Assembly (NCBI GenBank): GCA_017544005.1 | Contig: JAFYEZ010000020.1 | Coordinates: forward strand, 1-48,229 | DNA length: 48,229 bases | Origin: Bacteroidales bacterium | Lineage (GTDB): Bacteria; Bacteroidota; Bacteroidia; Bacteroidales; UBA932 | Direction of reading: 5' to 3' | In this document: one piece after another, positions 5,337 to 39,248 of the stretch | Numbering within the stretch: the stretch's first letter is position 1 | Layout: each line of letters starts with the position of its first letter | The notes under the pieces: model-generated | What the model was told of the DNA's origin: nothing | The model's input: only the letters and a program-made list of their open reading frames with translations | Databases searched by the model: none | Translations under genes and position numbers: made by a program

Positions 5337-6521
5337 ATGACCCGCATGCTCAACGATCAGGTCCGTTACATCGGTACGGACGACCATATTAGCGATCTTT
5401 TTGAAAGCCAATATATTCTGCCGGAAGGCATGGCCTATAATTCCTATTTGATCCGGGATGAGAAAGTCGCCATCCTGGATACCACGGACGGAGCGACGGC
5501 GGATGCCTGGAAGGCGAATCTGCACGAAGCCCTCTCCGGCCGCACGCCCGACTACCTGGTGGTCCATCACATGGAGCCGGACCATTCGGCCCTGATTGCC
5601 TGGGCGCTGGGCGCATATCCCACCCTGAAGGTGGTCTGCAGCGACATGGCCATCCGGATGCTCGGCCAGTTCTTCGAGGGACTCGATCTGGCCGGCCGTA
5701 CGCTGGCCGTCAAAGAGGGGGATATGCTCGATCTGGGCGCGCACAAACTGCGTTTTATTGCGGCGCCGATGGTCCACTGGCCGGAGGTGATGATGAGCTT
5801 CGACGAGGCGGACGGCGCGCTCTACAGCGCCGATGCCTTCGGCAAGTTCGGCGCCCTCGATACCTGCGGCTTTTATGGGCGCGACGACCAGGACTGGACC
5901 TGCGAAGGGCGCCGCTATTATTTCAATATCGTGGGCAAGTACGGCCCGCAGGTGCAGGCGCTGCTGCGCAAGGTGGCCACGCTCCCGGTCAAGACCATCC
6001 GGCCGCTCCACGGCCCCATCCTGGAAGACAATCTGAGCGAATATATCCGTCTGTATGATATCTGGAGCCGGTATGCCGTGGAGACCGAGGGTATCTTCAT
6101 CGCCTGCGCCTCCATCCACGGCGGTACGCTGGCAGCGGCTGAAAAGCTCGCGGAAATCCTGCGCGCCAAGGGATGCGGCAGGGTAGAGGTCAGCGATCTC
6201 TGCCGCAGCGATTTCGCGGAGAACGTGGAAGATGCCTTCCGCCATTCGACCCTGGTCCTGGCGGCCTCCTCCTACGATGCCGGTCTCTTTACCCCGATGT
6301 ATGAGTTCCTGCACCGTCTCCAGATCAAGGGCTTCTGCAACCGCCGCGTTGGCCTCGTCGAGAATGGCTCCTGGGCGCCGACTGCCGGCCGCGAGATGAA
6401 GCGGATGCTTGCCGAGATGAGCGGCATCGACCTGGTGGAACCGATGGTGACCCTCCGCAGCCGCCTCAAATCCACCGACCTCCCGGCCCTCGAATCCCTC
6501 GCCGCAGCGCTGCTGAAATAA
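5337..6521 (+). CDS. fprA: A-type flavoprotein (flavodiiron protein, FprA family)
   Basis: This is a cytoplasmic enzyme that reduces O2 to water, and in some relatives NO to N2O, to protect anaerobes. The protein is 394 aa. The N-terminal metallo-beta-lactamase-like domain carries the full diiron ligand set: the HxExDH motif at His78-Glu80-Asp82-His83, then His147, Asp166 and His225. A flavodoxin-like FMN domain follows from about residue 250 (IFIACASIHGGTLAAAEKLAE). The ATG at 5337 gives the expected N-terminus and follows a clear -7 box by 28 bases; the longer upstream frame is antisense to the HAD gene. It is monocistronic, ending at a strong terminator. No rubredoxin or NADH-oxidoreductase domain is fused, so the electron donor is encoded elsewhere. 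Confidence 0.93.
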   Translation: MTRMLNDQVRYIGTDDHISDLFESQYILPEGMAYNSYLIRDEKVAILDTTDGATADAWKANLHEALSGRTPDYLVVHHMEPDHSALIAWALGAYPTLKVVCSDMAIRMLGQFFEGLDLAGRTLAVKEGDMLDLGAHKLRFIAAPMVHWPEVMMSFDEADGALYSADAFGKFGALDTCGFYGRDDQDWTCEGRRYYFNIVGKYGPQVQALLRKVATLPVKTIRPLHGPILEDNLSEYIRLYDIWSRYAVETEGIFIACASIHGGTLAAAEKLAEILRAKGCGRVEVSDLCRSDFAENVEDAFRHSTLVLAASSYDAGLFTPMYEFLHRLQIKGFCNRRVGLVENGSWAPTAGREMKRMLAEMSGIDLVEPMVTLRSRLKSTDLPALESLAAALLK

Positions 6522-6525
6522 ATGG

Positions 6526-6551
6526 AAAAGGCTGCCGGGAGGCAGCCTTTT
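6526..6551 (+). terminator. Bidirectional Rho-independent terminator between fprA and the DUF4923 gene
   Basis: A perfect 11-bp inverted repeat, AAAAGGCTGCC and GGCAGCCTTTT, surrounds a GGGA loop. A-tract and T-tract flanks make it work in both directions, matching its place between two convergent genes. Confidence 0.9.
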
Positions 6552-6574
6552 CTTATATGTCAGGATGTTGTCCG

Positions 6575-7204
6575 TTATTTGATCTTGCCCATATCGAAGC
6601 CGAGCTTCATGCCGCTGTAGTTCTTGATGACGGTGTTGATGGCGGCGATGCTCTGGTTGGAAGAGGAGAGGGCGGTGAGTTTCTTGAGGAACTTCAGCAA
6701 GGAGTTGGCCTTGAAGAGAATCTTCAGGTCGTCGTTGGTGACGGAGGCCGTGCCGGAGATCTTCGGAAGCTTCACGCCTTTGGCAAAGACCATGTTGATG
6801 TCGCTGCCGTTGATGGTGTAGGTACCGGAGTAGATTTTATCCCCATAAGCCACAGCGAAGGAGCTGTCGGCTGCAAAAACCATCTTGAAGGCACCGGGTT
6901 TGATGCCGATCTTTTCAAGATAGGGATCGATCTGGGCAGCGACGGTGTTGGAAGCCGCGCTGGCAGCCAGGTTGGCGGTCATGTCCTCGCTGGTGAGGGC
7001 GATGGCGGAACCTTTGAAGTCCCAGTTGCCGACGATGCTGGTGTTGAGCGAGATACCGGTCACGCTCTCCAGCACGTTCTTCACGGTGGAGTTGCCGGTG
7101 ATATTCTTGAGCAGGCCGCCCAGGCCGCTCTGTGCGGAAACGGTAGCGGAGCCGGCGAGGGAAACCATCACGACGGCTGCGATTGCAATCAGAGATTTTT
7201 TCAT
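6575..7204 (-). CDS. Exported DUF4923 family protein
   Basis: This is a 209-aa exported protein of unknown function. The N-terminal Sec signal peptide is clear (MKKSLIAIAAVVMVSLAGSA, with probable cleavage after TVSAQ). The mature protein has text typical of DUF4923 proteins of the Bacteroidales: SGLGGLLKNITGN, IVGNWDFKGSAIAL, then an alternation of beta-strand-like segments (YSGTYTINGSDINMVF, ISGTASVTNDDLKILF) that suggests a lipocalin-like beta fold. Cys is absent from the mature part. The start at 7204 is chosen for the signal peptide and because a -7 box lies upstream of it. It is a single-gene unit ending at the shared terminator. The role is unknown. Confidence 0.8.
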   Translation of the reverse strand: MKKSLIAIAAVVMVSLAGSATVSAQSGLGGLLKNITGNSTVKNVLESVTGISLNTSIVGNWDFKGSAIALTSEDMTANLAASAASNTVAAQIDPYLEKIGIKPGAFKMVFAADSSFAVAYGDKIYSGTYTINGSDINMVFAKGVKLPKISGTASVTNDDLKILFKANSLLKFLKKLTALSSSNQSIAAINTVIKNYSGMKLGFDMGKIK

Positions 7205-7227
7205 GGTGTTACGTTTGAATTTTGTTC

Positions 7228-23320: not shown

Positions 23321-25312
23321 ATGAAACATTCTTTTCATATTCTGTGGATGACCATTCTCTCTGCCGCTTCGCTTCCGCTGAGCGCTCAGAATCTATCTTC
23401 CGTCGCCGATACCCTGGAAAGCGTTTCGGTCACCGGCGTCCGGATTCCCGTGACCCTGCAGCAGAGCGCCCGGATGGTGACGGTGCTCGACAGTGCGGCC
23501 ATCGCCGCAATTCCGGCCACCAGCGTCAATGACCTGCTCAAGCACGCTGTGGGGGTGGATGTACGCCAGAGGGGAGCTGAGGGCATGCAAACGGATATCA
23601 GCATCCGGGGCGGCACCTGCGACCAGATTGCCATTCTGATCAACGGCATTCCGGTCAGCGATCCGCAGACGGGCCACAATGCGGCCGATTTTCCGGTGGA
23701 TATCAGCGAGATCGAGCGTATTGAGATTCTGGAAGGGCCTGCAGCCCGTGCCTATGGCACCTCGTCGCTGCTGGGCGGAATCAACATCGTGACCCGATCC
23801 CTCGCTTCGACCGGCGTCTCCGGCCGCCTGGAGGCGGGCATGCACGGCCTGTTCAAGGCGGGGGCTTCGGCCGGAATCGCATCCGGCGCCCTGCGCAACC
23901 AGTTCTCCGCCGGCTATCTGCGCAGTAGCGGATACACGAAGAACCGGGCCGGCGGACTGAATACGGACTTCTCGGGCGCCAAGTTCTTCTATCAGGGATC
24001 CCTCGACCGCCGCGACTACGCCCTGCGCTGGCAGAGCGGTCTCACCCTCAAGGACTTCGGCTCCAACACCTTCTACAGCGCCAAATTCGACGATCAGTTC
24101 GAGCATACCTTCAAGAGCTTTACAGCCATTCAGGCCGAGACCCGGGGCAAGATCCATCTGCGTCCCGCCCTCTACTGGAACCACGGGGAAGACCGTTTTG
24201 AGCTCTTCCGCGGGGCTCCTGACAAATATCCGTTCAACTACCACAGAACGAACGTAATCGGCGTCAACCTGGGCGGCTGGGCGGAAACCCGGATCGGCAA
24301 GACAGCCTTCGGCGCTGAGATGCGCAACGAGGATATCATCAGCACCAACCTGGGCGAACCGCTGCCCGAAGCCGTGCCCATCCGCGGCACGGACGCCACC
24401 TACAAGGTCGGGCTGAACCGGACGGATATCAGTATTTATCTGGAACACAGCCTGATTCTCCGGCGATTTACCTTCTCGGCAGGCGCCGTCGCCTCGCGGA
24501 ATACCGGCAATCGGGAAGGGTTCCGGTTCTACCCCGGCGCCGACATCAGTTTCCGCGTCTCTGATTCCTGGAAACTCTATGCCTCCTACAACCGGTCGCA
24601 GCGCATGCCGACCTTTACGGAGCTTTATTATTCCGTAGGCGGCCATCAGGCAGACAAGAATCTGCGGGCCGAGAAGATGCAGGCCCTGGAGGGCGGTGTG
24701 AAGTTCCTGCGCCCGGGCATCCGCGCCATTGCCACGGTTTACTACCACCACGGGACGGATATGATCGACTGGATCAAGGATCTCTCGGTGCTGGATGCTC
24801 CCTGGACCTCGGTAAACCATGCCGTGGTCAATTCGCTCGGAGAGGAGCTGACCCTCCGGCTGGACTTTCCGCTCCTGTTGGCCCGGGAGCGTTTCATCCT
24901 GCGCGATCTGAGTCTCTGTTATGCCCACATCAGCCAGGATAAGGCGCAGATTCCCGGGTACGAATCCTATTATGCGCTGGAATACCTGCGTAACAAATTT
25001 GTTGCACAAGTAGATCTTGCACCATGGAAGTATCTGAATATCAATGTTTCATATCGGTTGAACGACCGCGTCGGTTCTTACCGCCGCTATGAAGACGGCG
25101 TAGATACGGGGGAGAGCGTCTCCTACAGGCCGTACTCCCTGGTCGATGCCAAAATATCCTGGGATGCCCCCGCATTCAGCCTCTGGCTCTCGGTGGAGAA
25201 CCTGCTGAATACGGTCTATGTGGACCACGGAAACGTGCCGCAGCCCGGCGTTTGGATCAAGGCCGGCGTTGCAATACCTGCGTCATGCAGTGGGCGGCAC
25301 CGTAGCCTTTGA
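23321..25312 (+). CDS. TonB-dependent outer-membrane receptor
   Basis: This is an outer-membrane active transporter driven by TonB, 663 aa. There is a signal peptide (MKHSFHILWMTILSAASLPLSAQ), then a TonB-box-like/plug start (LESVSVTGVRIPVTLQQSARMVTVLDS). The plug domain has typical text (DLLKHAVGVDVRQRG, ISIRGGTCDQIAILINGIPVSDPQTGHNA, IERIEILEGPAARAYGTSSLLGGINIVTR). A beta-barrel follows (FTFSAGAVASRNTGNREGF, NRSQRMPTFTELYYSVGG). The overall form resembles BtuB/vitamin B12 or siderophore receptors rather than SusC, with no carboxypeptidase-like N-domain. The substrate is unknown. The last strand GVWIKAGVAI is followed by 14 extra, barrel-unlike residues instead of ending at an aromatic residue, and the 3' end overlaps the arginine deiminase gene by 56 bases. 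Confidence 0.9.
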   Translation: MKHSFHILWMTILSAASLPLSAQNLSSVADTLESVSVTGVRIPVTLQQSARMVTVLDSAAIAAIPATSVNDLLKHAVGVDVRQRGAEGMQTDISIRGGTCDQIAILINGIPVSDPQTGHNAADFPVDISEIERIEILEGPAARAYGTSSLLGGINIVTRSLASTGVSGRLEAGMHGLFKAGASAGIASGALRNQFSAGYLRSSGYTKNRAGGLNTDFSGAKFFYQGSLDRRDYALRWQSGLTLKDFGSNTFYSAKFDDQFEHTFKSFTAIQAETRGKIHLRPALYWNHGEDRFELFRGAPDKYPFNYHRTNVIGVNLGGWAETRIGKTAFGAEMRNEDIISTNLGEPLPEAVPIRGTDATYKVGLNRTDISIYLEHSLILRRFTFSAGAVASRNTGNREGFRFYPGADISFRVSDSWKLYASYNRSQRMPTFTELYYSVGGHQADKNLRAEKMQALEGGVKFLRPGIRAIATVYYHHGTDMIDWIKDLSVLDAPWTSVNHAVVNSLGEELTLRLDFPLLLARERFILRDLSLCYAHISQDKAQIPGYESYYALEYLRNKFVAQVDLAPWKYLNINVSYRLNDRVGSYRRYEDGVDTGESVSYRPYSLVDAKISWDAPAFSLWLSVENLLNTVYVDHGNVPQPGVWIKAGVAIPASCSGRHRSL

Positions 25313-26471
25313 TGCAGTTTTCCAGCGGTACCCAGTCAACCCGGACTCCGGCCTCGGAGAGCTGACGTTCCAAGGCGCGGGACTGACCTGCGACGGCCAT
25401 GATGCTGCGCGGAGCAACCGTCAGGAAGTTGTTGGCGTAGTGCTCCTCGTCTTCCGGACCGATAGGGATAATCTGGAACCCGTTCTCCCTGAGGTACTCG
25501 ACAAAGGGCTTGTCTTTCTCTACGCACCGATAGGGCGTACCGGCTGATTCCCGTTTCCAGATATCGCAGGTGCCGAATTCCGGCTGGCCTTTCCGGGCGT
25601 TCAGGCGGCTGGCGACCATCGTACAGAGGTCCTTGTCGATGAGATTGAACCAGGTATCCAGGTGCATCTGTTTCTGCCAGAACTTGTGGTCGCGCACCAC
25701 GACGACCGTGTCGTGGCCGAAAGCGTCGGCTTCCATGATCTGCCGGATGCCCTCGTCGTTGGTGCGCATGCCGCAACCGATGAACGAGACCTTACCAGAG
25801 GGGAAGTAGTCTCCGCCTTCCAGACGGCCCTCTCCGGTGATTTTCAGGATCGGGTAGATGCGCAGACGCTCGTAACAGAGGGTGATGATCTCGGTTTCCG
25901 GCGCGCGCTGTTCGGAATTCATCTGACAAATAATGAGCCCCTTCGGCGTATTGATGCTCTGGTCGCGCGTGAAATAGAGGTTCATCAGCGGCCGGTAGCT
26001 GTAAGCCCCCTGGATACCGGTATTGCGGTCGCTCTCATAGAGCGTGACGGTGGGGCGCAGCAGGATGCAGCGAATCAGGTCGGTGCGGGACATCTTGTAG
26101 AGCACCTCCCGCCGGTAGTCTTCCATGCGGGCTACATCCAGGTTGGGCAGGTGGGAACCGTCGTAGGTCAGCATGTGCGAGGCGATGGTGCGCAGACGGT
26201 CCGTATCAGTATGCTCGAGAATTCCCCGAACCGTGTGAACGACAATACCCTTGCGTTTCAGCCTGCGGATGTAGTCGCGGTGTTCGTTCGCCACTTTTTC
26301 CGCGTCAAAATAGTCTTCATAGAGGCCTGCTGCCGGGTGAATCACGGCGTCGAAAGCCTCGGGACCTGGCGTATGCATCAGAATTTCGCCGGCTTTGTGC
26401 CATTCTGCCTGCGGATTCTCCCAGTGGCCGCGCGGCGCTTCCCGTTTGTTTTCTTTATGGAATAGAGACAT
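25257..26471 (-). CDS. Arginine deiminase family protein
   Basis: This is probably an arginine deiminase (arginine to citrulline plus ammonia), 404 aa. The guanidino-modifying fold is recognised by the N-terminal text EILMHTPGPEAFDAV, FTRDQS, LEGGDYFPSGK, the catalytic His region KQMHLDTWF, and the nucleophile Cys395 near the C-terminus (GYGAAHCMTQ). The usual ADI text is FTRDP, so FTRDQ is a small departure, and amidinotransferase or another guanidine substrate cannot be excluded. It is the last gene of the five-gene operon that includes a Kef-type antiporter, starting 11 bases after the LEA-like gene. Ammonia production by ADI with cation/proton exchange would fit pH control, an inference from context. 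No carbamate kinase or ornithine carbamoyltransferase gene is adjacent. Confidence 0.85.
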   Translation of the reverse strand: MSLFHKENKREAPRGHWENPQAEWHKAGEILMHTPGPEAFDAVIHPAAGLYEDYFDAEKVANEHRDYIRRLKRKGIVVHTVRGILEHTDTDRLRTIASHMLTYDGSHLPNLDVARMEDYRREVLYKMSRTDLIRCILLRPTVTLYESDRNTGIQGAYSYRPLMNLYFTRDQSINTPKGLIICQMNSEQRAPETEIITLCYERLRIYPILKITGEGRLEGGDYFPSGKVSFIGCGMRTNDEGIRQIMEADAFGHDTVVVVRDHKFWQKQMHLDTWFNLIDKDLCTMVASRLNARKGQPEFGTCDIWKRESAGTPYRCVEKDKPFVEYLRENGFQIIPIGPEDEEHYANNFLTVAPRSIMAVAGQSRALERQLSEAGVRVDWVPLENCIKGYGAAHCMTQVLQRRP

Positions 26472-29240: not shown

Positions 29241-31085
29241 TTATTCGTGCTTGAGAACGACGGTATTGGCGTAGGCTTTGTTCAACGCGCGCGCAAAGGC
29301 CTTGTAATCAGGGTAACGGTCGGCTTCCGTGTGGCATTTGCGAAGCAGCGTGCGCTGGTCGATGACCACCGTATTGCCTTCCGTACGGCAGGTGGAGGAG
29401 AAGAGCCCCCAGGGCTCATCCATTACCACGTCATCGGGAAGGCTCTCCACGTTAAAGCCGTCGGGAAGCTGGATGACGATACGGTCGTGCGCGTTTTGTA
29501 CGGAGCGCCTCTCAATGGGATTGACCCTCGCTTTGCGCTGATAGTAAAGCCGTTTTGCGAGATTGTTGACTGGAACGAAGATGCGGTTTCCGCCCGAGCG
29601 CGCGTAGGTGTGCGCCGCAAAGGTATAGTCGATGGTAATCTCCGGAATCCAGGAGGGACCGTCATAGGATTTGAAATTGTCGCGGATGTCCGTGACCGTG
29701 AGATCCTGGCTATGGATGTCGAAACTGCCTGCAATGGCCTCGTTGCGTTCCTCTTCCGACCAGTTGCGGAAATTGAACAGATGTTCGGCGTTGTCCAGCG
29801 TAAAGCGTGAAGAAACCTTCACATCGGCCGCTCCGTCCGCCTTGAGGGAAACGTTCCAGAGGTTCTCGACGATTCCGAGCGAATCGGGATAGTCGGGAAC
29901 GTGCGAGAATACACCGACGTAGTCCTTGAGAATCAGGACGTCGTGGCCGGCAACATCTTCGTGTCGGTATCCCAGCGGAACGGAAGGGTTGGTGCACTCC
30001 ACGTAGAGCGTGTCCGCCGTCTCCTTGAGAGGAACGGTCAGCATCACGTGGTTGGTCTGGCCGAAACAGGAGTAGTCCGCGAAGAGTTTTTTACGGTCAG
30101 TATTCAGGATGGTATAATAGGATTCGATGCCGACCTCGCGAAGCAGGCAGGCGAAATAGTTGGTCAGGGCCTTGCAATCGCCGAATCCCGAACGGTCCAC
30201 CACGGAGGCCTTGAAGGGGCGGAAACCACCGATACCGAACTGGATGCTCACGTAGCGGGTCTTCTCACGCAGATAATCGTACAAAACGCGGATTTTCTCC
30301 AGTTCACCCGAGCAACCGTCCGTCATCTTATGAATCTTGCTGCGCGTGGCGGCGGGAAGGTCGTCACAGTCCCACATAAGCAGGCTGTCCCAGTTGCCGA
30401 GGTTTTCCCAGCAGTCCTGCGATCCGGAAACCTTGTCGAAGGTAAAATTGACCGGTGCAGAAAGCAGCAGGGGAAGCATTGTGATGGGATCCGGCATCAG
30501 ATGTTCGTCTACGACGGCCTTGACGTCGGAGATGCTCCAGCGGTACTGCGTCGCGCTTTTCTCGGGCTCCGGCATATTGATTCCGTGGAAGATAATCTGT
30601 GTATTCTCGGGAAGAATCAACTCGTAGGAGCCTTTCACGAGGCGTGTGCCGTCGCAATGGATGGGAGCGAATGTGGGGAATACGGCGATGCCCCGACTGA
30701 ACTCTACCGTATAATCGTAAGTAACCGTATAGTGGCCGTTATCCGGTGGAATGTATCCCGTAATCGTATTGTCATCAGCCAGTTCCGTCGCGGTCGCAAC
30801 TGTAATCAGGTCGCTCTTGGAGAGCGTTTCCGTTTTGCCGTTCTCATAAACGATGGTTCCCTTGAAAGCGGTCACCTTTTCAAAAGGACTCGTGTTGACC
30901 CGGAATTCGGCTTCGTCGCAACCATCTTCATCCAACACGGCCACGATGCGTTTCACTGTATGCTTTCCCTTGAGTTGGGAGAGCATCCTGAAGGATTCTG
31001 TATTCTCCAGCACGATGGCGTGTTCCTGTGCCGAAAGAGCCGGCAGCCACGCGAAGAGGAGGGCGAGTATCAGGAGCTTTTTCAT
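29241..31085 (-). CDS. Exported DUF3857/transglutaminase-like protein (intact catalytic Cys)
   Basis: This is a periplasmic or surface protein, 614 aa, with a signal peptide (MKKLLILALLFAWLPALSA). The N-terminal DUF3857-like beta domain is followed by a transglutaminase-like papain-fold domain: Cys304 in GFGDCKALTNYFACLLREVGI and His346 in QTNHVML. The third catalytic position, usually Asp, falls in YVECTNP, so Glu or Asn may replace it. A C-terminal DUF3858-like region completes it (DGFNVESLPDDVVMDEPWG). The biochemical role of this family in Bacteroidetes is not established. It overlaps the upstream homologue by four bases (ATGA), so the pair is coupled. Confidence 0.85.
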   Translation of the reverse strand: MKKLLILALLFAWLPALSAQEHAIVLENTESFRMLSQLKGKHTVKRIVAVLDEDGCDEAEFRVNTSPFEKVTAFKGTIVYENGKTETLSKSDLITVATATELADDNTITGYIPPDNGHYTVTYDYTVEFSRGIAVFPTFAPIHCDGTRLVKGSYELILPENTQIIFHGINMPEPEKSATQYRWSISDVKAVVDEHLMPDPITMLPLLLSAPVNFTFDKVSGSQDCWENLGNWDSLLMWDCDDLPAATRSKIHKMTDGCSGELEKIRVLYDYLREKTRYVSIQFGIGGFRPFKASVVDRSGFGDCKALTNYFACLLREVGIESYYTILNTDRKKLFADYSCFGQTNHVMLTVPLKETADTLYVECTNPSVPLGYRHEDVAGHDVLILKDYVGVFSHVPDYPDSLGIVENLWNVSLKADGAADVKVSSRFTLDNAEHLFNFRNWSEEERNEAIAGSFDIHSQDLTVTDIRDNFKSYDGPSWIPEITIDYTFAAHTYARSGGNRIFVPVNNLAKRLYYQRKARVNPIERRSVQNAHDRIVIQLPDGFNVESLPDDVVMDEPWGLFSSTCRTEGNTVVIDQRTLLRKCHTEADRYPDYKAFARALNKAYANTVVLKHE

Positions 31086-33085
31086 TGCACTTTCTTTAAA
31101 ACGATGACGGCGCGCTCTGCATTGCCGAGGCCTTCCCAGAAGGAGCGAAGCTCGGAATAGCCGCTGACAGGTACACGCAACGTGTTCAGGTTGAAGTTGA
31201 AGAGGGCGATCACCCGGTTGTCTTCCCGGGTGCAGCGCAAAGAGTAGTTACTTTGGTTCGCCGCCGAACAAAATGCGTTGTAGGCCCGGGGAAGCTGTTC
31301 CACTTCGTATCCTTCCGGAATGTTGAGCACGAACCTGTAGAGATGGCGGTGGCGATAGTTGAAATCGACCGGCGTCATCCGTTTCTCGCGCTGGAAAGCG
31401 CCGTCCAGATGCCAGGGATAGAGGAAGACGGGGATATAGAGGTAATCGCCGCTTTGGTCAATCTCCTTCTGGAAATCATAATGAACGTGGCAAGTGTCAC
31501 TCCGCTTGTCCGCGTTGGTCATAGACATCGTGGAGATGTCGATCCGCTCATCGATTTCGGTATCCTGAATCCATTCGTCCTCATCGGAAAAACGGTCGCG
31601 GTTTGCCTTGACCGAATAGCAGGGATATCCCGCGACGTCGATATTGGAGAGGCCCGAAAGCAACCCGGTCGCCGGATCGACGTTCACGACGACCTCCTGG
31701 GAGAAGGAGTTGGTGTTGGGATTCCTGACGGAGGTCAGGTCCACCCACTCTCCGCCGCCTTCCGGGTGCATCCAACGCGCTTTTTCCACCAGATAGTCAG
31801 AATCGAAGAGGTTCAGGTAGCCGCATTTGTCTTCCGAGGCATCCAGGTAATAGACCTTTCGGTCCGGGGTGCTCACCCGCAGGATGACGGCAGTAAAAGC
31901 GGAGGCCGTTACGTGGTCCTCATTCAGGTCTCCGGATGAACGCGGATGGATCAGGACCGGGTCGGCCGTATAGCCGATTGAATTCAATGCACTGGCCAGC
32001 AGGGCGTTCAGGTCGGCCGAGTTCCCTTCGTGCGCCTTGAGGGTTTCTCCCGGACTTTGTGCCGAAAGGCGTGTGTGCCCGTTCCAGCTCACCTCTTCCC
32101 GGAGCAGATTCCAGACGGTCATTATCGTGGATTCATCGTCTTCCAACCCCGCGATGGCCTCAAAAAGAGCCTGTTTGTTCTTGAACGATGTGCGGAAAGG
32201 ATTTTGATATCCTGATTCCTTAAGATTGAAATCGATCTGCGCCCAACTCGTCGCGAAATTTTGCTCTTTCTTATTGGGAATCACGAATCTGCGCAGATCA
32301 TAAACAATTCCGAGCCGGTAGGAGTCGGAGGCGATGCTGTAGGGTTCGCGGCGAAGGCGGGGCACGTCGCTGACCTTGTAGTAGTCTGTCCTGAGATGAT
32401 AATCGACCGGATTCCCTCCGAGGAGCACGGCAGTCTCCAGGTTGGTTTCGTTGCTCGTTTCAATCCTGGAAGAATCGCCCTTGAGCATCGTATTGTAGGT
32501 GAAATAGTCAGGATAAGAGACCTCCGTGACCGCGAGATTGATGGGATAGGTGGTGGCCTGCAGGTAGAGATTGTCAATTACCGAGTTGGAGAGAATCCAT
32601 TCGTAGGTCACTTCGACGACGGAACCGACCCGTACCTCCTCGGCCGTGAAGGTCACCCGCCTGGTGTCGTCGGTGAAACGCTTGTCGAAAATATACTCCT
32701 TGGACATCGGCGTCTTGACGACCTTTCCTTCGGCATCCAGGTTGTAAGTATTGACCTTGATGTTGGTTATTTTCTCCCGGCTGTTCTTGGCGGTGGAGTA
32801 GAAAAACTCGTAGTCCGCCACCTTTTTGCCCTCTTCTTTCAGGATTTTCCAGCGTTCGTTGACAACGATGTATTTGCCGAATGACGCGTCCGGATCGAGC
32901 CTGACAGAGACATCTGTCTTGCGGCAGAGCAGGAGGACTGCAGCGGTGGTATCCAGGTCGTAGCGCGTCAGGGCCACCTCCTCATCGGAAACGGCGCCGA
33001 ACTTCGGATTGACCGGGATAGACTGCGCCCGCAACGCCGGAACCGAACCGAGAAATAGGAATAAAAAGATGACAAATCGCCTCAT
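31082..33085 (-). CDS. Exported DUF3857/transglutaminase-like protein (degenerate active site)
   Basis: This is a 667-aa paralogue of the downstream protein with the same layout: signal peptide (MRRFVIFLFLFLGSVPALRA), DUF3857-like domain, transglutaminase-like domain and C-terminal beta domain (LNIPEGYEVEQLPRAYNAFC). The core text is GNSADLNALLASALNSIGY, where Ser356 stands at the place of the catalytic Cys seen as GDCKALTN in the paralogue, so it is probably not a cysteine-dependent enzyme. The start at 33085 is set by the signal peptide, with a -7 box upstream. It is the first gene of the five-gene operon that runs through the Kef-type antiporter to the arginine deiminase. Role unknown; it could be a partner or regulator of the active paralogue. 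Confidence 0.83.
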   Translation of the reverse strand: MRRFVIFLFLFLGSVPALRAQSIPVNPKFGAVSDEEVALTRYDLDTTAAVLLLCRKTDVSVRLDPDASFGKYIVVNERWKILKEEGKKVADYEFFYSTAKNSREKITNIKVNTYNLDAEGKVVKTPMSKEYIFDKRFTDDTRRVTFTAEEVRVGSVVEVTYEWILSNSVIDNLYLQATTYPINLAVTEVSYPDYFTYNTMLKGDSSRIETSNETNLETAVLLGGNPVDYHLRTDYYKVSDVPRLRREPYSIASDSYRLGIVYDLRRFVIPNKKEQNFATSWAQIDFNLKESGYQNPFRTSFKNKQALFEAIAGLEDDESTIMTVWNLLREEVSWNGHTRLSAQSPGETLKAHEGNSADLNALLASALNSIGYTADPVLIHPRSSGDLNEDHVTASAFTAVILRVSTPDRKVYYLDASEDKCGYLNLFDSDYLVEKARWMHPEGGGEWVDLTSVRNPNTNSFSQEVVVNVDPATGLLSGLSNIDVAGYPCYSVKANRDRFSDEDEWIQDTEIDERIDISTMSMTNADKRSDTCHVHYDFQKEIDQSGDYLYIPVFLYPWHLDGAFQREKRMTPVDFNYRHRHLYRFVLNIPEGYEVEQLPRAYNAFCSAANQSNYSLRCTREDNRVIALFNFNLNTLRVPVSGYSELRSFWEGLGNAERAVIVLKKVQ

Positions 33086-33102
33086 AAGGGTACAATTTGC
33101 TC

Positions 33103-33110
33103 CAAAGTTA
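33103..33110 (-). promoter_or_regulatory. -7 box for the DUF3857-Kef-arginine deiminase operon
   Basis: The minus strand reads TAACTTTG, an exact TAnnTTTG match, 17 bases before the ATG at 33085. No other promoter-like site or terminator is visible down to 25257, which supports a single five-gene operon. Confidence 0.7.
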
Positions 33111-33145
33111 GTGGAAGTTTTGCTTCCGTGCAAGAGTCCTGCGCG

Positions 33146-34030
33146 TCAGCGCAGCACATTCCCCGGCGAGAAAAGCAGGCCGAATCTCAGCATGTGGCGG
33201 GCCGGTGCCGGAGCGGTGCGGTCGTAGGGCACGTAGCCGTCGGGATTGATGGTCGCTCCAGTTACGGTTACGCAGTCCCGGAAAGCCTCGTCGTAGCCAT
33301 AATGGTACTGGACGAAGAGACTCGGATAGCCGAGTTTGGGCGCGATGCACCAGGCCACGTCCGCCGTCACGTTGGCCAGGGACTTGTTCAGCAGCGGCAA
33401 CACTTCGCCGGCGAATTCCCAACGGCCGTCACAGGTCCTGTAGGCAGCGCGCAGGCGGGCGATTCCCAGATACTTGGTGAGAATGTCGAAGGTGTACACA
33501 TCGCCGTAGCAGCCGACGCCAAAACGCGCTGCGGCCGAAAGGGTTAGCGATTCTTTGTCCCTCAGGTTCCATTGACGGAACCAGGTGCAGAAGAGATAGT
33601 TGATGCTGCGGGAGTAGGCATCGTCGCGGCCGTTGGAGCGGTGTTCGAAGCCCCAGAGCAGGCTGTGGTATCCATCCGTCCGGTAGAACTGTTTCCAGGC
33701 GTAGAGACCGGGAATGAAGGTATGGTCGTAGAAAGGGTAGGAGCGTATGTAGAAACTCCATAGGGAAATCTGCGTGTAGCCCAGGGCCAGGTTGATGCCG
33801 CTGCCGCCGATATTCTGCGCCAGGTCGGTCCGGAAACTGATCTGGAACTTCATATCGGCGGTATTGCCGGATAGCGGGGCGCCCAGTTGCGCTCCCGTCG
33901 TATAATATATAGGTCTGAGGGATCGGATGACCGGTGCGGGCCCCCGTCCGTCGGTCGCCTCCTGCGCGCGGAGTCCGTAAGGGGCAGCAAGCAGGAAAAG
34001 CGTAAAGAGAATTTTGGCTATATTTGTCAT
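33146..34030 (-). CDS. pldA: Outer-membrane phospholipase A (OMPLA)
   Basis: This is an outer-membrane beta-barrel phospholipase that hydrolyses misplaced phospholipids in the outer leaflet, 294 aa. There is a signal peptide (MTNIAKILFTLFLLAAPYGLRA). The OMPLA active site is complete: His130, Ser132 and Asn144 within FEHRSNGRDDAYSRSINYLF, with the same spacing as His142/Ser144/Asn156 of E. coli. Aromatic, alternating strands surround it (QISLWSFYIRSYPFYDH). The start at 34030 gives the signal peptide and follows a -7 box, so the gene has its own promoter although it lies on the same strand just after the acyl-carrier operon. A link to that operon's lipid chemistry is possible but unproven. 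Confidence 0.88.
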   Translation of the reverse strand: MTNIAKILFTLFLLAAPYGLRAQEATDGRGPAPVIRSLRPIYYTTGAQLGAPLSGNTADMKFQISFRTDLAQNIGGSGINLALGYTQISLWSFYIRSYPFYDHTFIPGLYAWKQFYRTDGYHSLLWGFEHRSNGRDDAYSRSINYLFCTWFRQWNLRDKESLTLSAAARFGVGCYGDVYTFDILTKYLGIARLRAAYRTCDGRWEFAGEVLPLLNKSLANVTADVAWCIAPKLGYPSLFVQYHYGYDEAFRDCVTVTGATINPDGYVPYDRTAPAPARHMLRFGLLFSPGNVLR

Positions 34031-34075: not shown

Positions 34076-34321
34076 TTACGCGGTGGCGACAGCGAGGCGG
34101 CGGCTCAGGTAGGCGACGATGTCGTCGATGGAGCGGAAACCGATCAGGTCGGCGTTCGGGATCGAAATGCCGAAGTGCTCTTCGATGGCGCTCACCATCT
34201 CAATGAAGACGAAGGAGTCCACGGCCCCTTCCTCCCGGAATGAGCCTGCGGTATTGATCTCTTCGACAGGGACTTCCACATAGTCCTGCAGAATGTCCAA
34301 AAGCTCTTTTCTGATATCCAT
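34076..34321 (-). CDS. Stand-alone acyl/peptidyl carrier protein
   Basis: This is an 81-aa carrier protein that would hold an acyl or aminoacyl group on a 4'-phosphopantetheine arm. The attachment Ser36 lies in GAVDSFVFIEMV, where DSF takes the place of the usual DSL. A four-helix ACP outline is visible (ELLDILQDYVEVPVEEI, then SAIEEHFGISIPNADL, then SIDDIVAYLSRRL), with the typical acidic character. The start MDIRKELLDIL at 34321 fits the family; the upstream frame overlaps the ligase. It is the last gene of a four-gene operon and lies 20 bases after the ligase that probably loads it. It is not next to fatty acid synthesis genes, so it is probably specialised. Confidence 0.88.
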   Translation of the reverse strand: MDIRKELLDILQDYVEVPVEEINTAGSFREEGAVDSFVFIEMVSAIEEHFGISIPNADLIGFRSIDDIVAYLSRRLAVATA

Positions 34322-34341
34322 TGCTGTATTGTGTCTAAGGG

Positions 34342-36078
34342 TTAAATCAAACTGATGCCGGTGCCGGAGCAAGCCGTAGGAAGCGTTGCGCGGCGGATTT
34401 TACGGGTAGAGGTCTTCTCGTACTCCTGCGCGGGGAGTTCGATGTATTCGATGCGCTTGTAGTCGGGCAGGAGGGCGTTGACCTTGCGGATGTCGGCGAT
34501 GATGGCTTCAATATCGCGGCGCTTGTCAGCTTCTTCGATATAAAGGCCTGCAACGAGGGTTTCACGGACAAAGCTGCCGCTCTTGAGCTCCGCCTGGTAA
34601 ACGACGATGTCGTTGGCGTAGTCCAGGTTGGTTTCAATCACATTTTCAACCTCTTCCGGGCAGATGTTCTTGCCGTTCTGGAGCACGATGGTATTCTTCT
34701 TGCGGCCCATCAGGAAGATCCGGCCCTTCTTGTCAATCCGGGCGCTGTCGCCGGTGTTGAAGAACCCGTCGGCCCCGAAGACTTCAGCTGTAGCTGCAGG
34801 GTCGTTGTAGTAGCCCTTGGCAACGCTCTTTCCGCGGACGCAAAGCTCGCCGATGCCGTTTTCGTCGGCATTCACAATCTTGGTCTCGAGCGCCGGGCAG
34901 GGACGGCCGACACTTAGGTGCTCCTTGAGCGTATCCGCGTTCATCGAGATGAGCGGACCGCACTCGGTGATGCCGTATCCGTTTTCGATGTGGATACCCA
35001 GGTCATTCATTCCTTTGATAACGACAGGATTGAGCATCGATCCTCCACAGACGATCATCTTCAGCTTGCCGCCGAAGGGCGCATAGACGTCCTTGAAAAG
35101 ATCGTGGGTCTTGTCCACCCCGAACTTGCGGAGCAGGTTGGTGAGTTTGATGCCTTTGCGGAGTTTCTCATCCTTGCCGGCCTTCTTGGCCTGTGCCCAG
35201 ATGGTCTTGTAGAACGCCGTGGCGATCATCGGCACGATGGTGAGCACCGTCGGCTGGAAGATCTTGATGTTGGCCATCATGTTGCGCATGTTGTCATTGA
35301 CATAGGTCAGACGGCCACAGCCGATGCGGGCCATGATGTGCGTATTGATTTCGGTGGCGTGGTGCATCGGCAGCACGCTCATCGAGGTATTCTCGCCTTC
35401 ATCCACCTGAATGACATCCATGCAGTTGATCATGTTGGCGGTCAGGTTGGCGTTGGTCAGCACGACGCCTTTGTTGGCGCCGGTCGTACCGCTGGTGAAG
35501 AGGATTTTGGCCGGTGCGTCGAGATTGAGCTCGATCTCGCGGTAGACGCTGGCGGAGGCCATGGAGCGGCCTTTTTCCACCAGTTCTTCGTAGTAGGGAA
35601 GCCCTTCCACCTTGCGGTCGATGGTAATCAGGGTCTTGACCTTCGGGCAGCCTTTCTGCGCCTCACGGACGATATCCAGATAGCCTGCGCCGCAAAAGAC
35701 GGCGTCCGCGTCGCATTGGGTGAGCAGGGTCTGCATCAGGGCGACGGGAGCGTTGCAGTCGATGGGCGTCACGACGCCTACGCCGCTGGAGATGGTGATG
35801 TCCGCGAAAACATACCGGCAGCAGTTCTCCGAGATGATGGCGATGTGGGCACCTGCCAGACCGGCGGCAATCAGGCCGTCTCCCAGACACATGACCTCCT
35901 CGTAGATGTCGTGAGCCGTGTAGTATTTGATCTGTTTCTCCTTGTCAAGCTCCGCAAGAATCCGGGTCTCCGGAATCAGACGGTTGATGCGAACGAGCAT
36001 GTCGCGGATGCTGCGGTAATCGCCATCCTTGAGCAGGGTGTTTCTCTGGTATTCTCTTTCAGTACGGTATTTTTTCAT
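34342..36078 (-). CDS. AMP-dependent acyl ligase (acyl-CoA/acyl-ACP synthetase or adenylation enzyme)
   Basis: This is an adenylate-forming enzyme, 578 aa, which activates a carboxylic acid as acyl-AMP and passes it to CoA or a carrier protein. Core motifs are the P-loop ILFTSGTTGANKG, GYGITECGPLIS, FNTGDSARIDKKG and the hinge GRKKNTIVLQNGKNICPEEVE, ending with the catalytic Lys region TSTRKIRR. The text is closest to long-chain fatty acyl-CoA ligases rather than NRPS A domains, but the carrier gene follows after 20 bases and a condensation-like gene precedes it by three bases. Loading of that carrier is therefore the likely role (inference). Substrate chain length or identity cannot be read. 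Confidence 0.88.
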   Translation of the reverse strand: MKKYRTEREYQRNTLLKDGDYRSIRDMLVRINRLIPETRILAELDKEKQIKYYTAHDIYEEVMCLGDGLIAAGLAGAHIAIISENCCRYVFADITISSGVGVVTPIDCNAPVALMQTLLTQCDADAVFCGAGYLDIVREAQKGCPKVKTLITIDRKVEGLPYYEELVEKGRSMASASVYREIELNLDAPAKILFTSGTTGANKGVVLTNANLTANMINCMDVIQVDEGENTSMSVLPMHHATEINTHIMARIGCGRLTYVNDNMRNMMANIKIFQPTVLTIVPMIATAFYKTIWAQAKKAGKDEKLRKGIKLTNLLRKFGVDKTHDLFKDVYAPFGGKLKMIVCGGSMLNPVVIKGMNDLGIHIENGYGITECGPLISMNADTLKEHLSVGRPCPALETKIVNADENGIGELCVRGKSVAKGYYNDPAATAEVFGADGFFNTGDSARIDKKGRIFLMGRKKNTIVLQNGKNICPEEVENVIETNLDYANDIVVYQAELKSGSFVRETLVAGLYIEEADKRRDIEAIIADIRKVNALLPDYKRIEYIELPAQEYEKTSTRKIRRATLPTACSGTGISLI

Positions 36079-36081
36079 GAT

Positions 36082-37449
36082 TTATGCGGGAAAAACTTCT
36101 TCCAGGGCAGCATCCGGACGGGCGAGCACGCCTTCGATCACACGGATGTACTGGTTCTGGAAATCAATTAGTTGTTGTGCGGTAACCATCAGTTTCTGCA
36201 CGTCGTAGTTGACATACACTTCGTTGGTGTTGATGTCGTGGATCAGGGCCATGTAGGTAAACAGGGCGCCCTTTCCGTTGCTGTGCACTTCCAGGCGGAT
36301 TCCCTTGGGCGCTGCCAGAGGAATGAACGAGAATGCCACGCCGTTTACGCTGCGGAGCATCGAGTAATTCCACGCCTTGTGCTGCATTGCCTCAATATCG
36401 AGGTAGCTCATACGGGTGTGGCGGTAAATCTCCTGCTGCTCGTCATAGACTGGTTTGATGTTGTCGATGAAGGACTTTGCGTAGTCCACCGGCGTATAGA
36501 TGACGATGCTCTGTGCCTTGGTGCCGGCCGCTTTGCGGTCTGCCACTGTGCCACGGCAGTTCAGCAGCTCGAGATTAAGAACTTTCTCGCAACGGTCGTT
36601 AATCAGCGACTGTGCGATTGAGCAGGTATAGTAGTAGAAGGAACTCAGAGAGATTGCATTCGCTTCACACCATTTCAGTGCGCGCTCGTTGATGGAGGCG
36701 GGGATGGTGAACTGGTAACCGATTGTATCGCAACGTACAAACAAATAGGTCTTAGCGAAGTTCCCTTTCAGTTTTTCCTTCATCCAACGGTCGCTCTTGT
36801 TGCCGTGGGTACCGCAATAATACGGATGCTCCGGGTGGCGGTTGAAGATGTAGTCGTGGAAGAATTCCTCGTCCTTCTTCAGAGCCTCGGAAGTGCGGTA
36901 TTCGTTGTCTTTACGGATAATCTCGAAGAAACTGCCCGGTGCCGGCGGAAGTTCCTGACCGTCGCGAAGTGCGTTGTAAACGGCAAAGAGGTCGTTCACC
37001 AGGATGCCGATTCCGTAGGTGTCCGCCACAAAGTGGCTGATTTTGAAGAAAATCATCTGCTTGCCTTCCGGATTGACGGCATACACCACGCGCAGGACGT
37101 CGCCCTTGTAGGCGTTGGTCGGTTTGCGGCGGAAGCGGTTGATGAAGGCCTCCATCTTGCCGTAGGTATCGAATTTCAGGGTAGGAATCAGCCCCACCGT
37201 GCGGTGCTCTGCAAAAAATTGTTTCACCTGCTTGCCCTCCTTGACGAAGGTGATGCGCAGGCAGTCGTTGCGCTCGAAGAGTTTGTTCAGCGCCTGCGTC
37301 ATCAGCTGCGGGTCGTACCCCTCGTCGCAGGTCACGGAAAAGACGATATTCACCACGCGCTTGAAGAGGGTGTACTTCGTCTGCAGGTTGATAACGTCCT
37401 GGGAATTGTTGAATCCCAGCAGGACTTTGCTGTCATTGCTTATTGCCAT
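36082..37449 (-). CDS. Condensation-domain-like acyltransferase
   Basis: This is a 455-aa cytoplasmic protein that resembles the NRPS condensation / chloramphenicol acetyltransferase-like fold. The signature appears in degenerate form as KISHFVADTYGIGILVNDLF: His139 and Asp143 of HHxxxDG are kept, the first His is Ser and the Gly after Asp is Thr. Downstream text with long beta/helix alternation (LNLELLNCRGTVADR, then IVIYTPVDYAKSF) fits the second half of the fold. It would transfer an acyl group from the carrier to an amine or alcohol acceptor. It overlaps the upstream exported-protein gene by ten bases and precedes the ligase by three. Assignment is from a short motif and from context, so the reaction is tentative. 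Confidence 0.68.
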   Translation of the reverse strand: MAISNDSKVLLGFNNSQDVINLQTKYTLFKRVVNIVFSVTCDEGYDPQLMTQALNKLFERNDCLRITFVKEGKQVKQFFAEHRTVGLIPTLKFDTYGKMEAFINRFRRKPTNAYKGDVLRVVYAVNPEGKQMIFFKISHFVADTYGIGILVNDLFAVYNALRDGQELPPAPGSFFEIIRKDNEYRTSEALKKDEEFFHDYIFNRHPEHPYYCGTHGNKSDRWMKEKLKGNFAKTYLFVRCDTIGYQFTIPASINERALKWCEANAISLSSFYYYTCSIAQSLINDRCEKVLNLELLNCRGTVADRKAAGTKAQSIVIYTPVDYAKSFIDNIKPVYDEQQEIYRHTRMSYLDIEAMQHKAWNYSMLRSVNGVAFSFIPLAAPKGIRLEVHSNGKGALFTYMALIHDINTNEVYVNYDVQKLMVTAQQLIDFQNQYIRVIEGVLARPDAALEEVFPA

Positions 37450-38294
37450 TGTTTCAAAAGGTTATTCAGTATTTTGATGTCAGATTTATCGACAGGGGAG
37501 TGTGTCTTGCAATCGTGGAAGATCCGCTGTGCGTAGGCGGTGATGGCGAGCGCTTCATCGCGGTCCGAGAGGGCGGTGTAGCCCACTGGGTTCCAGGGGG
37601 CGGAGAGCTTCTCGTCGGAGGCGCCATCGAAGAAAGCGTAGCGGTCAATGTTCGATTTGCCCTTGGCCGTGAATTTGTTCCGGTTGGCTTCTGCCTCGTA
37701 TGCCCGTTTCTTGGCGCTCCAGTTGCGTTTGTAGAGCATTTCGGCCAAATTGGTCAGGGTGCCGATCCGGAGTTCGCCCGCAGGAATGGTGAGCGCCGCC
37801 TTCCGGGCATAATTGATGGCAGCGTCGGATGACTTGAAGGGGTGCGCCCAATAGATGGCGGAGAGGGCCTGCCAGGCCTGGGAACTCTCCGTACGCCCCA
37901 GTTTATTGAGGACAGTGGTGAGGTCGGCGCTCATTTTCGGAACGGCGGCGGCCTGTTCCATCAGCTTGCGGGTCTGGCAGTCGCGCCCGATATTGCCGCA
38001 ATGCCAGAGGTACCCCTCCGGATTGGCCGGATCTTCCGCGATGCAGGCGTCCGCATATTTGATTCCCTCCGCATAGCAGTTGCGCTTTTCGTCTTTGGTA
38101 GCGGCGGCGTCACCCAGCATCAGCCAGGCGCGGGAGAGCCGCCAGAGCACTTCTGCCTTCTCGGCGCCGGGTGCCGCCTCGGGCAGCATCGCAAGCAGTG
38201 CATCCCGATTGGCCGCATAGTCGGCCTTGAAGGTAAACTCCCGGTCCAGGTTGGCGAACTGAAGCGCCAGAATGATGAAGAGGTACTTACACAT
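37440..38294 (-). CDS. Exported TPR-like helical repeat protein
   Basis: This is a 284-aa protein that opens with a short hydrophobic segment (MCKYLFIILALQFANL), probably a signal peptide or anchor. It continues with TPR-like helix pairs: EKAEVLWRLSRAWLMLGDAA, CYAEGIKYADACIAEDPANPEGYLWHCGNIG, and AAINYARKAALTIPAGELRIGTLTNLAEMLY. No catalytic motif is seen. It is the first gene of the acyl-carrier operon, ten bases overlapping with the condensation-like gene, and has its own -7 box. TPR proteins usually scaffold protein partners, so it may tie the pathway to the envelope, which is inference. I do not recognise a named family. Confidence 0.72.
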   Translation of the reverse strand: MCKYLFIILALQFANLDREFTFKADYAANRDALLAMLPEAAPGAEKAEVLWRLSRAWLMLGDAAATKDEKRNCYAEGIKYADACIAEDPANPEGYLWHCGNIGRDCQTRKLMEQAAAVPKMSADLTTVLNKLGRTESSQAWQALSAIYWAHPFKSSDAAINYARKAALTIPAGELRIGTLTNLAEMLYKRNWSAKKRAYEAEANRNKFTAKGKSNIDRYAFFDGASDEKLSAPWNPVGYTALSDRDEALAITAYAQRIFHDCKTHSPVDKSDIKILNNLLKQWQ

Positions 38295-38310: not shown

Positions 38311-38318
38311 CAAAGATA
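38311..38318 (-). promoter_or_regulatory. -7 box for the acyl-carrier operon
   Basis: The minus strand reads TATCTTTG, an exact TAnnTTTG match, 16 bases before the ATG of the first operon gene. It shares a region of about 120 bases with the divergent LytTR gene, a natural place for LytTR binding. Confidence 0.75.
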
Positions 38319-38379
38319 TATTAAACATAGGTTCGTGGCGAAAGCAGTGATATTTGGGGCGGGAATTCCGTAAAAGTTG

Positions 38380-38387
38380 TATATTTG
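38380..38387 (+). promoter_or_regulatory. -7 box for the LytTR regulator gene
   Basis: TATATTTG matches TAnnTTTG exactly, 27 bases before the ATG at 38415, divergent from the acyl-carrier operon. Confidence 0.7.
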
Positions 38388-38414
38388 TGGTAAAATTTAA
38401 ATTTTTGGGACAAA

Positions 38415-39248
38415 ATGAGCGCCAAACCGCAATCCGCCACACCCCTGAAAAAGGTTCCGCAGATCTTTGGAACGTTCAGTTTCCAACTCTGGTATATCCT
38501 TCTGCCGGCCTATTTTTTCTTCTTCATGGTTACCGTTTACCGTCCCTTCGGGATGGAGGAGGCCCTGGACATGGGGCGGGGACTCTTCTATTTCAACACC
38601 ACCATGCTGATGTGTATCATCCTGGTTTGCCTGCTGTTGCTGCGGCTTCTTTTCTGGGGAATCTTCCGGAATACGCAGCGAAACTGGCTGGGCTACTTTT
38701 TCTGGTGTTTTGGCGAGCTCTCGGTAATCGCCTACTTTATGGCGCTCTACCTCTGCCTGATGGGCGGCGCCATCACGCCTTATTTTACCCAGGTGGCCAT
38801 CTGTCTCCAGTACAGTTTCCTGATCCTGATTTATCCCTATTTCGGCATCACGGTGGTCAGTGCGCTGATTGCCTATCGGATGGCGGATCCGGAAGAGGAG
38901 GTGGCCAAGGACCATATCCGTTTTGTCGATTCCAACAACCAGGTCCGGATTGTCCTTGCCGCCAAATCCATCCTGTTCATCCGGGCGGAAGACAACTATG
39001 TAAAGATTCACTATCTGGATAACAACCGGGTGAAGGACTATCTGCTGCGCGCCACGATGAATTCAATCGCACCGCTCGTCGAGCCGCACGGCCTCTTCCG
39101 CTGCCAGCGCTCCTGGTTCGTCAATCTGGCGCACATCGTGGCCCTGCGCAAAGATCCGGACGATATGTACACCGTCGAACTCGATACGGACGGCATCTCC
39201 ATCCCTGTTTCCAGGGCGCTCTACCGCGAGCTGTCCGCCCGGCTCTGA
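38415..39248 (+). CDS. Membrane-anchored LytTR-type transcriptional regulator
   Basis: This is a 277-aa protein with four membrane helices in its first 150 residues (LWYILLPAYFFFFMVTVY, MLMCIILVCLLLLRLLFW, LSVIAYFMALYLCLMGG, YSFLILIYPYFGITVV). A C-terminal LytTR DNA-binding domain follows (SILFIRAEDNYVKIHYLDNNRVKDYLLRATMNSIAPL, then LFRCQRSWFVNLAHIVALRK). It has neither a response-receiver nor a kinase domain, so it acts as a one-component regulator with a membrane sensor. Its place, divergent from the acyl-carrier operon with about 120 bases between starts, makes that operon the likeliest target. The signal might be membrane state or a lipid, which is speculation. Confidence 0.87.
   Translation: MSAKPQSATPLKKVPQIFGTFSFQLWYILLPAYFFFFMVTVYRPFGMEEALDMGRGLFYFNTTMLMCIILVCLLLLRLLFWGIFRNTQRNWLGYFFWCFGELSVIAYFMALYLCLMGGAITPYFTQVAICLQYSFLILIYPYFGITVVSALIAYRMADPEEEVAKDHIRFVDSNNQVRIVLAAKSILFIRAEDNYVKIHYLDNNRVKDYLLRATMNSIAPLVEPHGLFRCQRSWFVNLAHIVALRKDPDDMYTVELDTDGISIPVSRALYRELSARL

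Follow-up and report, generated by a model that had tools for sequence, protein, structure and literature searches.

A 48,229-nucleotide (nt) contig of a Bacteroidales bacterium of the UBA932 lineage (JAFYEZ010000020.1, assembly GCA_017544005.1; this whole stretch is hereafter the window) carries, at positions 34076–38294 of its minus strand, four genes for a tetratricopeptide-repeat (TPR)-like protein, a free-standing condensation (C) protein, an acyl-AMP ligase and a free acyl carrier protein (ACP). Judged from sequence comparison, this segment is a genuine biosynthetic unit, conserved and patchily distributed, and it is probably the Bacteroidales version of the fatty-acid-amide (FAA) pathway of gut bacteria. 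The FAA gene set described in gut Clostridia consists of a free-standing ligase, an ACP and a C protein, as in the Oaa pathway of Coprococcus eutactus with its ligase OaaA, its carrier OaaACP and the amide-forming OaaC (PMC13142362). What the sequences themselves show is the domain identities, the catalytic residues that are kept, the conserved gene set, the kinship between the C protein and OaaC, and a conserved regulator with its repeat. The genes are as follows.

37440–38294, minus strand: TPR-like protein, probably exported, first gene of the unit (284 aa).
36082–37449, minus strand: free-standing C protein, OaaC-like, putatively of the C_FAA type (455 aa; PF00668).
34342–36078, minus strand: acyl-AMP ligase (578 aa; PF00501 and PF23562).
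34076–34321, minus strand: free ACP with a DSF attachment serine (81 aa; PF00550).

All four reading frames lie where the first-pass annotation of this DNA had placed them, as coupled minus-strand genes, and they are tightly packed, with a 10-nt overlap, a 3-nt gap and a 20-nt gap at their junctions. That annotation stopped at the four genes; our comparison extends the unit outward to a divergent LytTR regulator gene at 38415–39248 and a repeat at 38381–38411. The ATG at 34321 is the likely start of the carrier, because homology in four of five aligned relatives begins at its Met. Pfam places the enzymes with E-values of 6.3e-22 (Condensation), 2.5e-55 (AMP-binding), 5.2e-4 (AMP-binding_C_3, PF23562) and 3.1e-14 (PP-binding). 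None of the four proteins passes a curated NCBIfam cut-off among the matches listed (for the ligase, 25 of 101), the best listed match of the ligase reaching 202 bits against a cut-off of 476. An Rfam scan gave 0 matches.

The claimed acyl-AMP ligase keeps its core motifs in 18 of 18 sequences, as it does the lysine of its last motif (18/18), and is 58–89% identical to five homologues. The carrier is likewise free-standing as proposed, with the attachment serine present in all 19 loci at which the C gene was found (DSF in 17, NSF in 2). Elsewhere in its own draft genome (1.57 Mb, 86% complete) are a phosphopantetheinyl transferase gene (PF01648), two further PP-binding carriers and four further ligase-like matches at E<=1e-20.

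The closest solved relative of the C protein, over its full length, is OaaC, as judged by profile and single-sequence searches. A phmmer search of the PDB with the single protein finds 12kh_A at E 2.3e-15 over residues 30–452, and a profile of six homologues finds the same chain at E 3.9e-31 over positions 4–448, the second-best profile match being PvdL (E 3.1e-14) over about 147 positions. Entry 12KH is the crystal structure of OaaC from C. eutactus, according to the data statement of a 2026 preprint (PMC13142362). For the fold, another point raised by the first-pass annotation, this full-length match to a solved structure serves as the evidence. In profile alignment with hhalign, OaaC (E 7.4e-22 over 428 columns) stands ahead of the C domain of a non-ribosomal peptide synthetase (NRPS) encoded on a Bacillus plasmid (7.7e-16 over 392 columns) and of the other NRPS rows, six at 4.4e-12 to 6.2e-9 and one at 1.4e-5, this comparison covering 8 of our nine NRPS rows.

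Features within the protein agree with this placement. The reading of a condensation-domain-like protein with a degenerate HHxxxDG that retains His139 and Asp143 stands, both residues being present in 19 of 19 loci; the motif is S138-H139-x-x-A142-D143-T144, and in the alignment KISHFVADT of the window faces KIDHRLMDS of OaaC. The insertion singled out in the OaaC paper measures 17 residues relative to the C domain of AB3403 (PMC13142362). The corresponding segment, around OaaC 214–224, comprises 62 residues in OaaC, 61–62 in 19 of 19 Bacteroidales proteins and 37–44 in nine of nine NRPS rows, two of which are near-identical. The C protein occupies its own frame of 455 aa, and the stop-to-stop frames across the 19 loci span 446–508 aa, compared with the 300–520 aa used as a length filter for FAA C proteins (PMC13142362). 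Ligase and carrier are linked to the C gene in 18 of 19 loci; in the remaining genome, G710, the carrier is linked and the ligase lies elsewhere.

Several observations weigh against the FAA assignment. Identity between the C protein and OaaC is only about 22%. The tree that splits OaaC and the 19 Bacteroidales proteins from the nine NRPS rows (support 100/98) has very long stems, at 3.0 and 3.5 changes per column, a single FAA row and uneven composition. The motif reported for FAA C proteins is (D/H)HxxxD(S/A/G), with the second His and the Asp kept and with Ser (42%), Ala (36%) or Gly (17%) at the last position among 127 proteins (PMC13142362), whereas across our 19 loci, window included, His139 is preceded by Ser in 18 and Cys in 1, and Asp143 is followed by Thr in 15, Ser in 2, Asp in 1, Leu in 1 and Gly in 0. 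In a phmmer search with OaaC, the Bacillus plasmid C domain scores 3.8e-27 versus 2.1e-18 for the window protein, which is the weakest of the 19 Bacteroidales rows; the Bacillus domain outscores 16 of these 19, and three Bacteroidales rows score better still. Finally, the flanks compared show no recurrent neighbouring gene that would supply an amine, and the choice of amine acceptor is therefore unguided by gene context.

Conservation of the unit is evident from its gene order, which the first-pass annotation had singled out as a point to check: TPR–C–ligase–carrier on one strand is found in 18 of 19 loci, and 54 junctions, measured from the stop codon to where homology begins, range from −13 to +24 nt. 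The spread is patchy. A search with the single C protein matches 9 of 149 genomes of the same family, including its own; four of the others are full length at 49–62% identity and four are short and weak (E 5.8e-5 to 5.0e-4). The C profile matches 19 of 398 same-family genomes, own included, in 5 of 25 genera, and the family is present in 5 of 40 genomes of the genus. Across the phylum the profile finds 2 of 395, its own genome and one 135-position match in an NRPS-like 2198-aa frame, and across the order the single protein finds 1 of 393, its own only; the genome draws of these family, genus, order and phylum searches overlap. A scan of genome contigs gives one relative, L018, from a goat rumen Bacteroidales metagenome-assembled genome (L018 and L039 are counted once). 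Viral contigs scanned with the C and TPR alignments hold no relatives, and a plasmid search gave 9 records, all below 60% identity, of which the annotated ones are NRPSs. The Bacillus C domain that matches OaaC strongly (3.8e-27) lies at 6001–7218 of a Bacillus amyloliquefaciens plasmid (L053), where no gene is listed; it has the motif HHIIMDG and lacks the insertion.

Individual loci depart from the common arrangement. In G710 (L050/L068) the unit is split, with the C and carrier genes beside a LytTR gene on contig C2 and the ligase (1025 bits) on contig C1, where it adjoins genes for a sodium:solute symporter and for a carboxylesterase; a search for a TPR homologue in this genome found none. 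In G080 (L017) thiamine-synthesis genes precede the unit, an ABC transporter gene comes after it and LytTR is lacking, and in G598 (L076) the remaining TPR end seems, by eye, also to follow a thiamine-synthesis gene.

Transfer of the unit between genera is suggested, not settled, because groupings in the C tree conflict with genus: the window and L039 (genus g1) join L048 and L049 (g22) at 100/99, and L044 (g1) joins L045 (g4) at 98/98. The ligase tree leaves the first of these groupings unresolved and, contrary to the second, unites L045 with L052 (both g4) at 95/87. Ratios of nonsynonymous to synonymous change between the window and L018 (dN/dS, Nei–Gojobori) are 0.075 for the C gene, 0.075 for the ligase, 0.06 for the carrier, 0.09 for LytTR and 0.15 for TPR, with dS above 1 and near saturation for TPR, C and LytTR; by these ratios and by the residues kept in ligase and carrier, the parts of the unit look functional.

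The gene set fits the activate–load–transfer scheme, with neither thioesterase nor multimodular gene, that had been read from it. We infer a fatty acyl substrate, an amine acceptor, an amide product, a role for the TPR-like protein and binding of the LytTR protein to the repeat. The ligase would convert a free fatty acid and ATP to a fatty acyl-adenylate and would then load the acyl group onto the carrier's phosphopantetheine. The C protein, with His139 helping, would join this acyl-carrier donor to a freely diffusing small amine to give an N-acyl amide. The TPR-like protein would act outside the cytoplasm on the product or on a target membrane, perhaps as a lipid-binding carrier, and the membrane-bound LytTR protein would read the state of the membrane and control both the operon and itself through the intervening repeat. 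In the known system, the Oaa ligase, carrier and C protein together perform loading and transfer, and oleoyl-CoA supplied to OaaC gave no product; FAA C proteins form amides from acyl-ACP and free amines, with an opening of the homodimer on holo-ACP (PMC13142362).

The first gene product had been called an exported TPR protein; export is likely, and the TPR identity is weak. In all of 18 homologues, read as stop-to-stop frames, the N-terminal stretch is more hydrophobic than any segment that starts at residue 71 or later, which makes export likely. Signal peptides are clear by eye in L015 and L017, and the stretch in the window copy is short. No Pfam model matches the window protein at E<=0.01; the best TPR model reaches E 0.011 in one of six homologues, and RMD1-3 gives E 0.086 in one of six members, short of the Pfam cut-off. 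At E<=0.001 the profile matches a single PDB entry, the RMDN3/PTPIP51 TPR domain (7cc7; E 2.6e-4, 81 positions), a domain that two reviews report to bind or transfer phosphatidic acid. A lipid-carrier role for the bacterial protein would be compatible with this match and is a lead, not a result. The family is tied to the unit in its distribution: it occurs in 6 of 100 relatives searched, own included, five of which have the C gene, and in the sixth, G598, a contig end cuts the locus on the side expected to hold the C gene; in these relatives the TPR-like gene was not found away from the gene set.

Beyond the TPR-like gene, the unit extends into a shared intergenic region and a divergent gene.

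38415–39248, plus strand: divergent membrane LytTR transcription regulator (PF04397, E 8.3e-17; four candidate transmembrane (TM) segments in the window copy, C-terminal LytTR domain).
38381–38411, minus strand: operator-like direct repeat GTCCC...ACCAC with a 20-bp period, in the intergenic region shared by LytTR and the operon.
38335–38360, minus strand: second possible repeat pair on the operon side, GCCCC at 38360 and GCCAC at 38339, 21 bp apart.
38311–38318, minus strand: TATCTTTG, possible operon promoter, matching the Bacteroides −7 element.
38380–38387, plus strand: TATATTTG, −7-like element belonging to the LytTR gene; the first repeat overlaps it.

A divergent membrane LytTR homologue adjoins the unit in 12 of 19 loci. 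In the 12 intergenic regions, which include close relatives and represent about seven independent groups, two copies of [ATG][TC]C[AC]C exactly 20 bp apart occur 13 times against 0.13 expected, a count reached in 0 of 300 shuffles; the motif was chosen after viewing the regions, and the shuffles keep base content only. The background of such pairs is 0.143 per kb in 620,940 strand-bases, the 12 regions included. A strict form of the repeat, with AAATAT, occurs once in the 1.57-Mb own draft genome (control, 0) and 10 times in 20 sequences scanned, exclusively at LytTR loci (10 of 12); it is absent from the 7 loci without LytTR, of which L016 and L051 have less than 0.8 kb upstream. In the stretch of G598 taken as a held-out test of the repeat, no LytTR gene was found. 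The second pair, located towards the −7-like element of the operon, is weaker (2 pairs at 21 bp in the 12 regions). Both promoter-like elements were read against the Bacteroides −7 consensus, TAnnTTTG. A generic LytTR motif was tried and set aside for want of any excess (0 double sites; 3 single sites versus 3.6 expected), a sigma-70 scan was near chance, and terminator-like sites (12 versus 7.5 expected) were not used.

Directly downstream of the carrier gene lies the following.

33146–34030, minus strand: PLA1-family outer membrane phospholipase (PF02253, E 1.6e-20).

Considered as a member of the pathway, this gene was rejected on two counts: of the 19 loci, just the window and its nearest relative have it beside the unit, and a −7-like element of its own, TATATTTG, stands between phospholipase and carrier gene within an inverted repeat (by eye). 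By eye the protein also shows an HxSNG-type motif. Transporters and hydrolases in the flanks were likewise rejected as partners, the scanned flanks differing between loci except within close groups; those seen include a GH120-like gene in three loci of one genus, an ABC transporter, a nucleoside hydrolase, a phosphodiesterase and others. Between the phospholipase and a cation/proton antiporter gene, a DUF3857/transglutaminase-like gene pair (29241–33133, minus strand) has no match in L018, where both flanks adjoin, which suggests an insertion or a loss. Further along, 25257–26471 (minus strand) encodes an arginine-deiminase-family protein (94.8 bits against the arcA cut-off of 489.1) that is kept near the antiporter in L018.

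The same enzymes could instead use an amino acid or a lipid head group as acceptor and make a structural membrane aminolipid, a reading that we consider unlikely. A C protein of this kind could in principle take any amine nucleophile, N-acyl amino acid lipids are abundant in Bacteroidota, and the exported TPR-like protein and adjacent outer membrane phospholipase would suit a role in the envelope. FAA C domains, however, exclude proteogenic and nonproteogenic amino acids, according to the introduction of PMC13142362. Presence in 5 of 40 genomes of the genus also fits a housekeeping lipid poorly, and the phospholipase, adjoining the unit at just two loci, is a doubtful witness for such a role.

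Ester formation, with the C protein acting as a PapA5- or wax-ester-type O-acyltransferase, is very unlikely in our judgement. The CAT/condensation superfamily includes ester-forming members and the HHxxxDG motif is altered here, but at E<=0.01 PF00668 is the only Pfam model that matches the C protein, with no wax-ester or PapA model among them, and the nearest solved relative, OaaC, forms amides. The product, described in the first-pass annotation as N- or O-acylated, is likelier to be the N-acyl form and less likely to be the O-acyl one.

Least credible is a Dlt-like system in which carrier loading and outward passing would acylate the exported TPR-like protein or an envelope polymer. In its favour, the operon begins with the TPR gene, which 18 of 19 loci retain, and the carrier matches DltC weakly (E 6.4e-7). 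Against it, no stretch of the window C protein is hydrophobic enough to span a membrane, the TPR-like protein probably resides outside the cytoplasm, the scanned subset of the flanking proteins includes no DltB-like membrane acyltransferase, and G710 yielded no TPR homologue.

If the unit is an FAA pathway, as we think probable, its purpose may be the conjugation of toxic free fatty acids or, possibly, the making of a lipid signal. The first of these follows an analogy with Blautia, for which PMC13060934 ties the making of acyl amines to rescue from toxic free fatty acids. The case for such a purpose is weakened here because, in the same source, Bacteroides rarely showed fatty acid toxicity. 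A bolder reading, which we regard as improbable, is a transferable lipid-signal module in which the N-acyl amide would be made by the enzymes, carried through the periplasm by the TPR-like protein, much as PTPIP51 carries phosphatidic acid, and sensed by the membrane LytTR protein, which would switch both operon and regulator through the shared 20-bp repeat; if true, five genes would supply the maker, carrier, receptor and operator for lipid signalling of an autocrine or between-cell kind.

Whatever its purpose, an FAA-kind enzyme set in Bacteroidales, with its nearest named relative from goat rumen, would widen the range of producers of such lipids, which in the pathways described from gut Clostridia act on host receptors (PMC13142362); the TPR-like protein and the LytTR gene with its repeat would offer handles on export and control, and the gene set is small enough to be expressed whole. 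Among the titles and abstract openings listed by searches of open-access papers, none describes the four-gene operon, and the main text of PMC13142362 contains no word beginning with 'Bacteroid' or 'transporter' and has 'operon' once, in the reference list. The earlier reading as a split NRPS or acyl-transfer pathway is supported; the named relative in OaaC and the FAA pathway, the LytTR gene with its repeat, and the patchy spread had been missed.

Compared with known systems, the bacterial TPR-like protein has a profile match in common with RMDN3/PTPIP51, and differs in that the match is weak and partial and the protein is exported. LytTR regulatory systems share with the unit a LytTR regulator and direct repeats at a period of about 20–21 bp in the regulator's own promoter region; published repeats are mostly 9 bp with spacers of 11–13 bp, and Bacteroides LytTR regulators with several transmembrane segments are known (PMC6193735). 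The repeat found here has a 20-bp period, counted with half-sites of 5 bp. The differences are that the regulator here is divergent from the operon and itself membrane-bound, and that the first repeat overlaps the −7-like element of the regulator gene rather than lying upstream of a promoter. LytTR regulatory systems also have a regulator co-transcribed with a separate membrane inhibitor, a partner at which no dedicated search was aimed here. Canonical NRPS C domains, the starter type included, have PF00668 in common with the C protein, and among the NRPS rows compared the Bacillus C domain comes nearest; the C protein differs in being a single-domain protein with SHxxxDT in place of HHxxxDG, with the insertion present and with neither a multidomain context nor an acceptor carrier. 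The Oaa pathway shares the free-standing trio, homology over the full length of the C protein, the second His and the Asp without HHxxxDG, and the insertion; it differs in phylum, in the low identity of the C proteins, and in the residues flanking the catalytic pair, Ser before His and Thr after Asp in the window. To this trio the Bacteroidales add an exported TPR-like protein (18 of 19 loci) and a membrane LytTR gene with its repeat (12 of 19). The unit is not categorically new: it appears to belong to the FAA type, to which it adds two conserved features.

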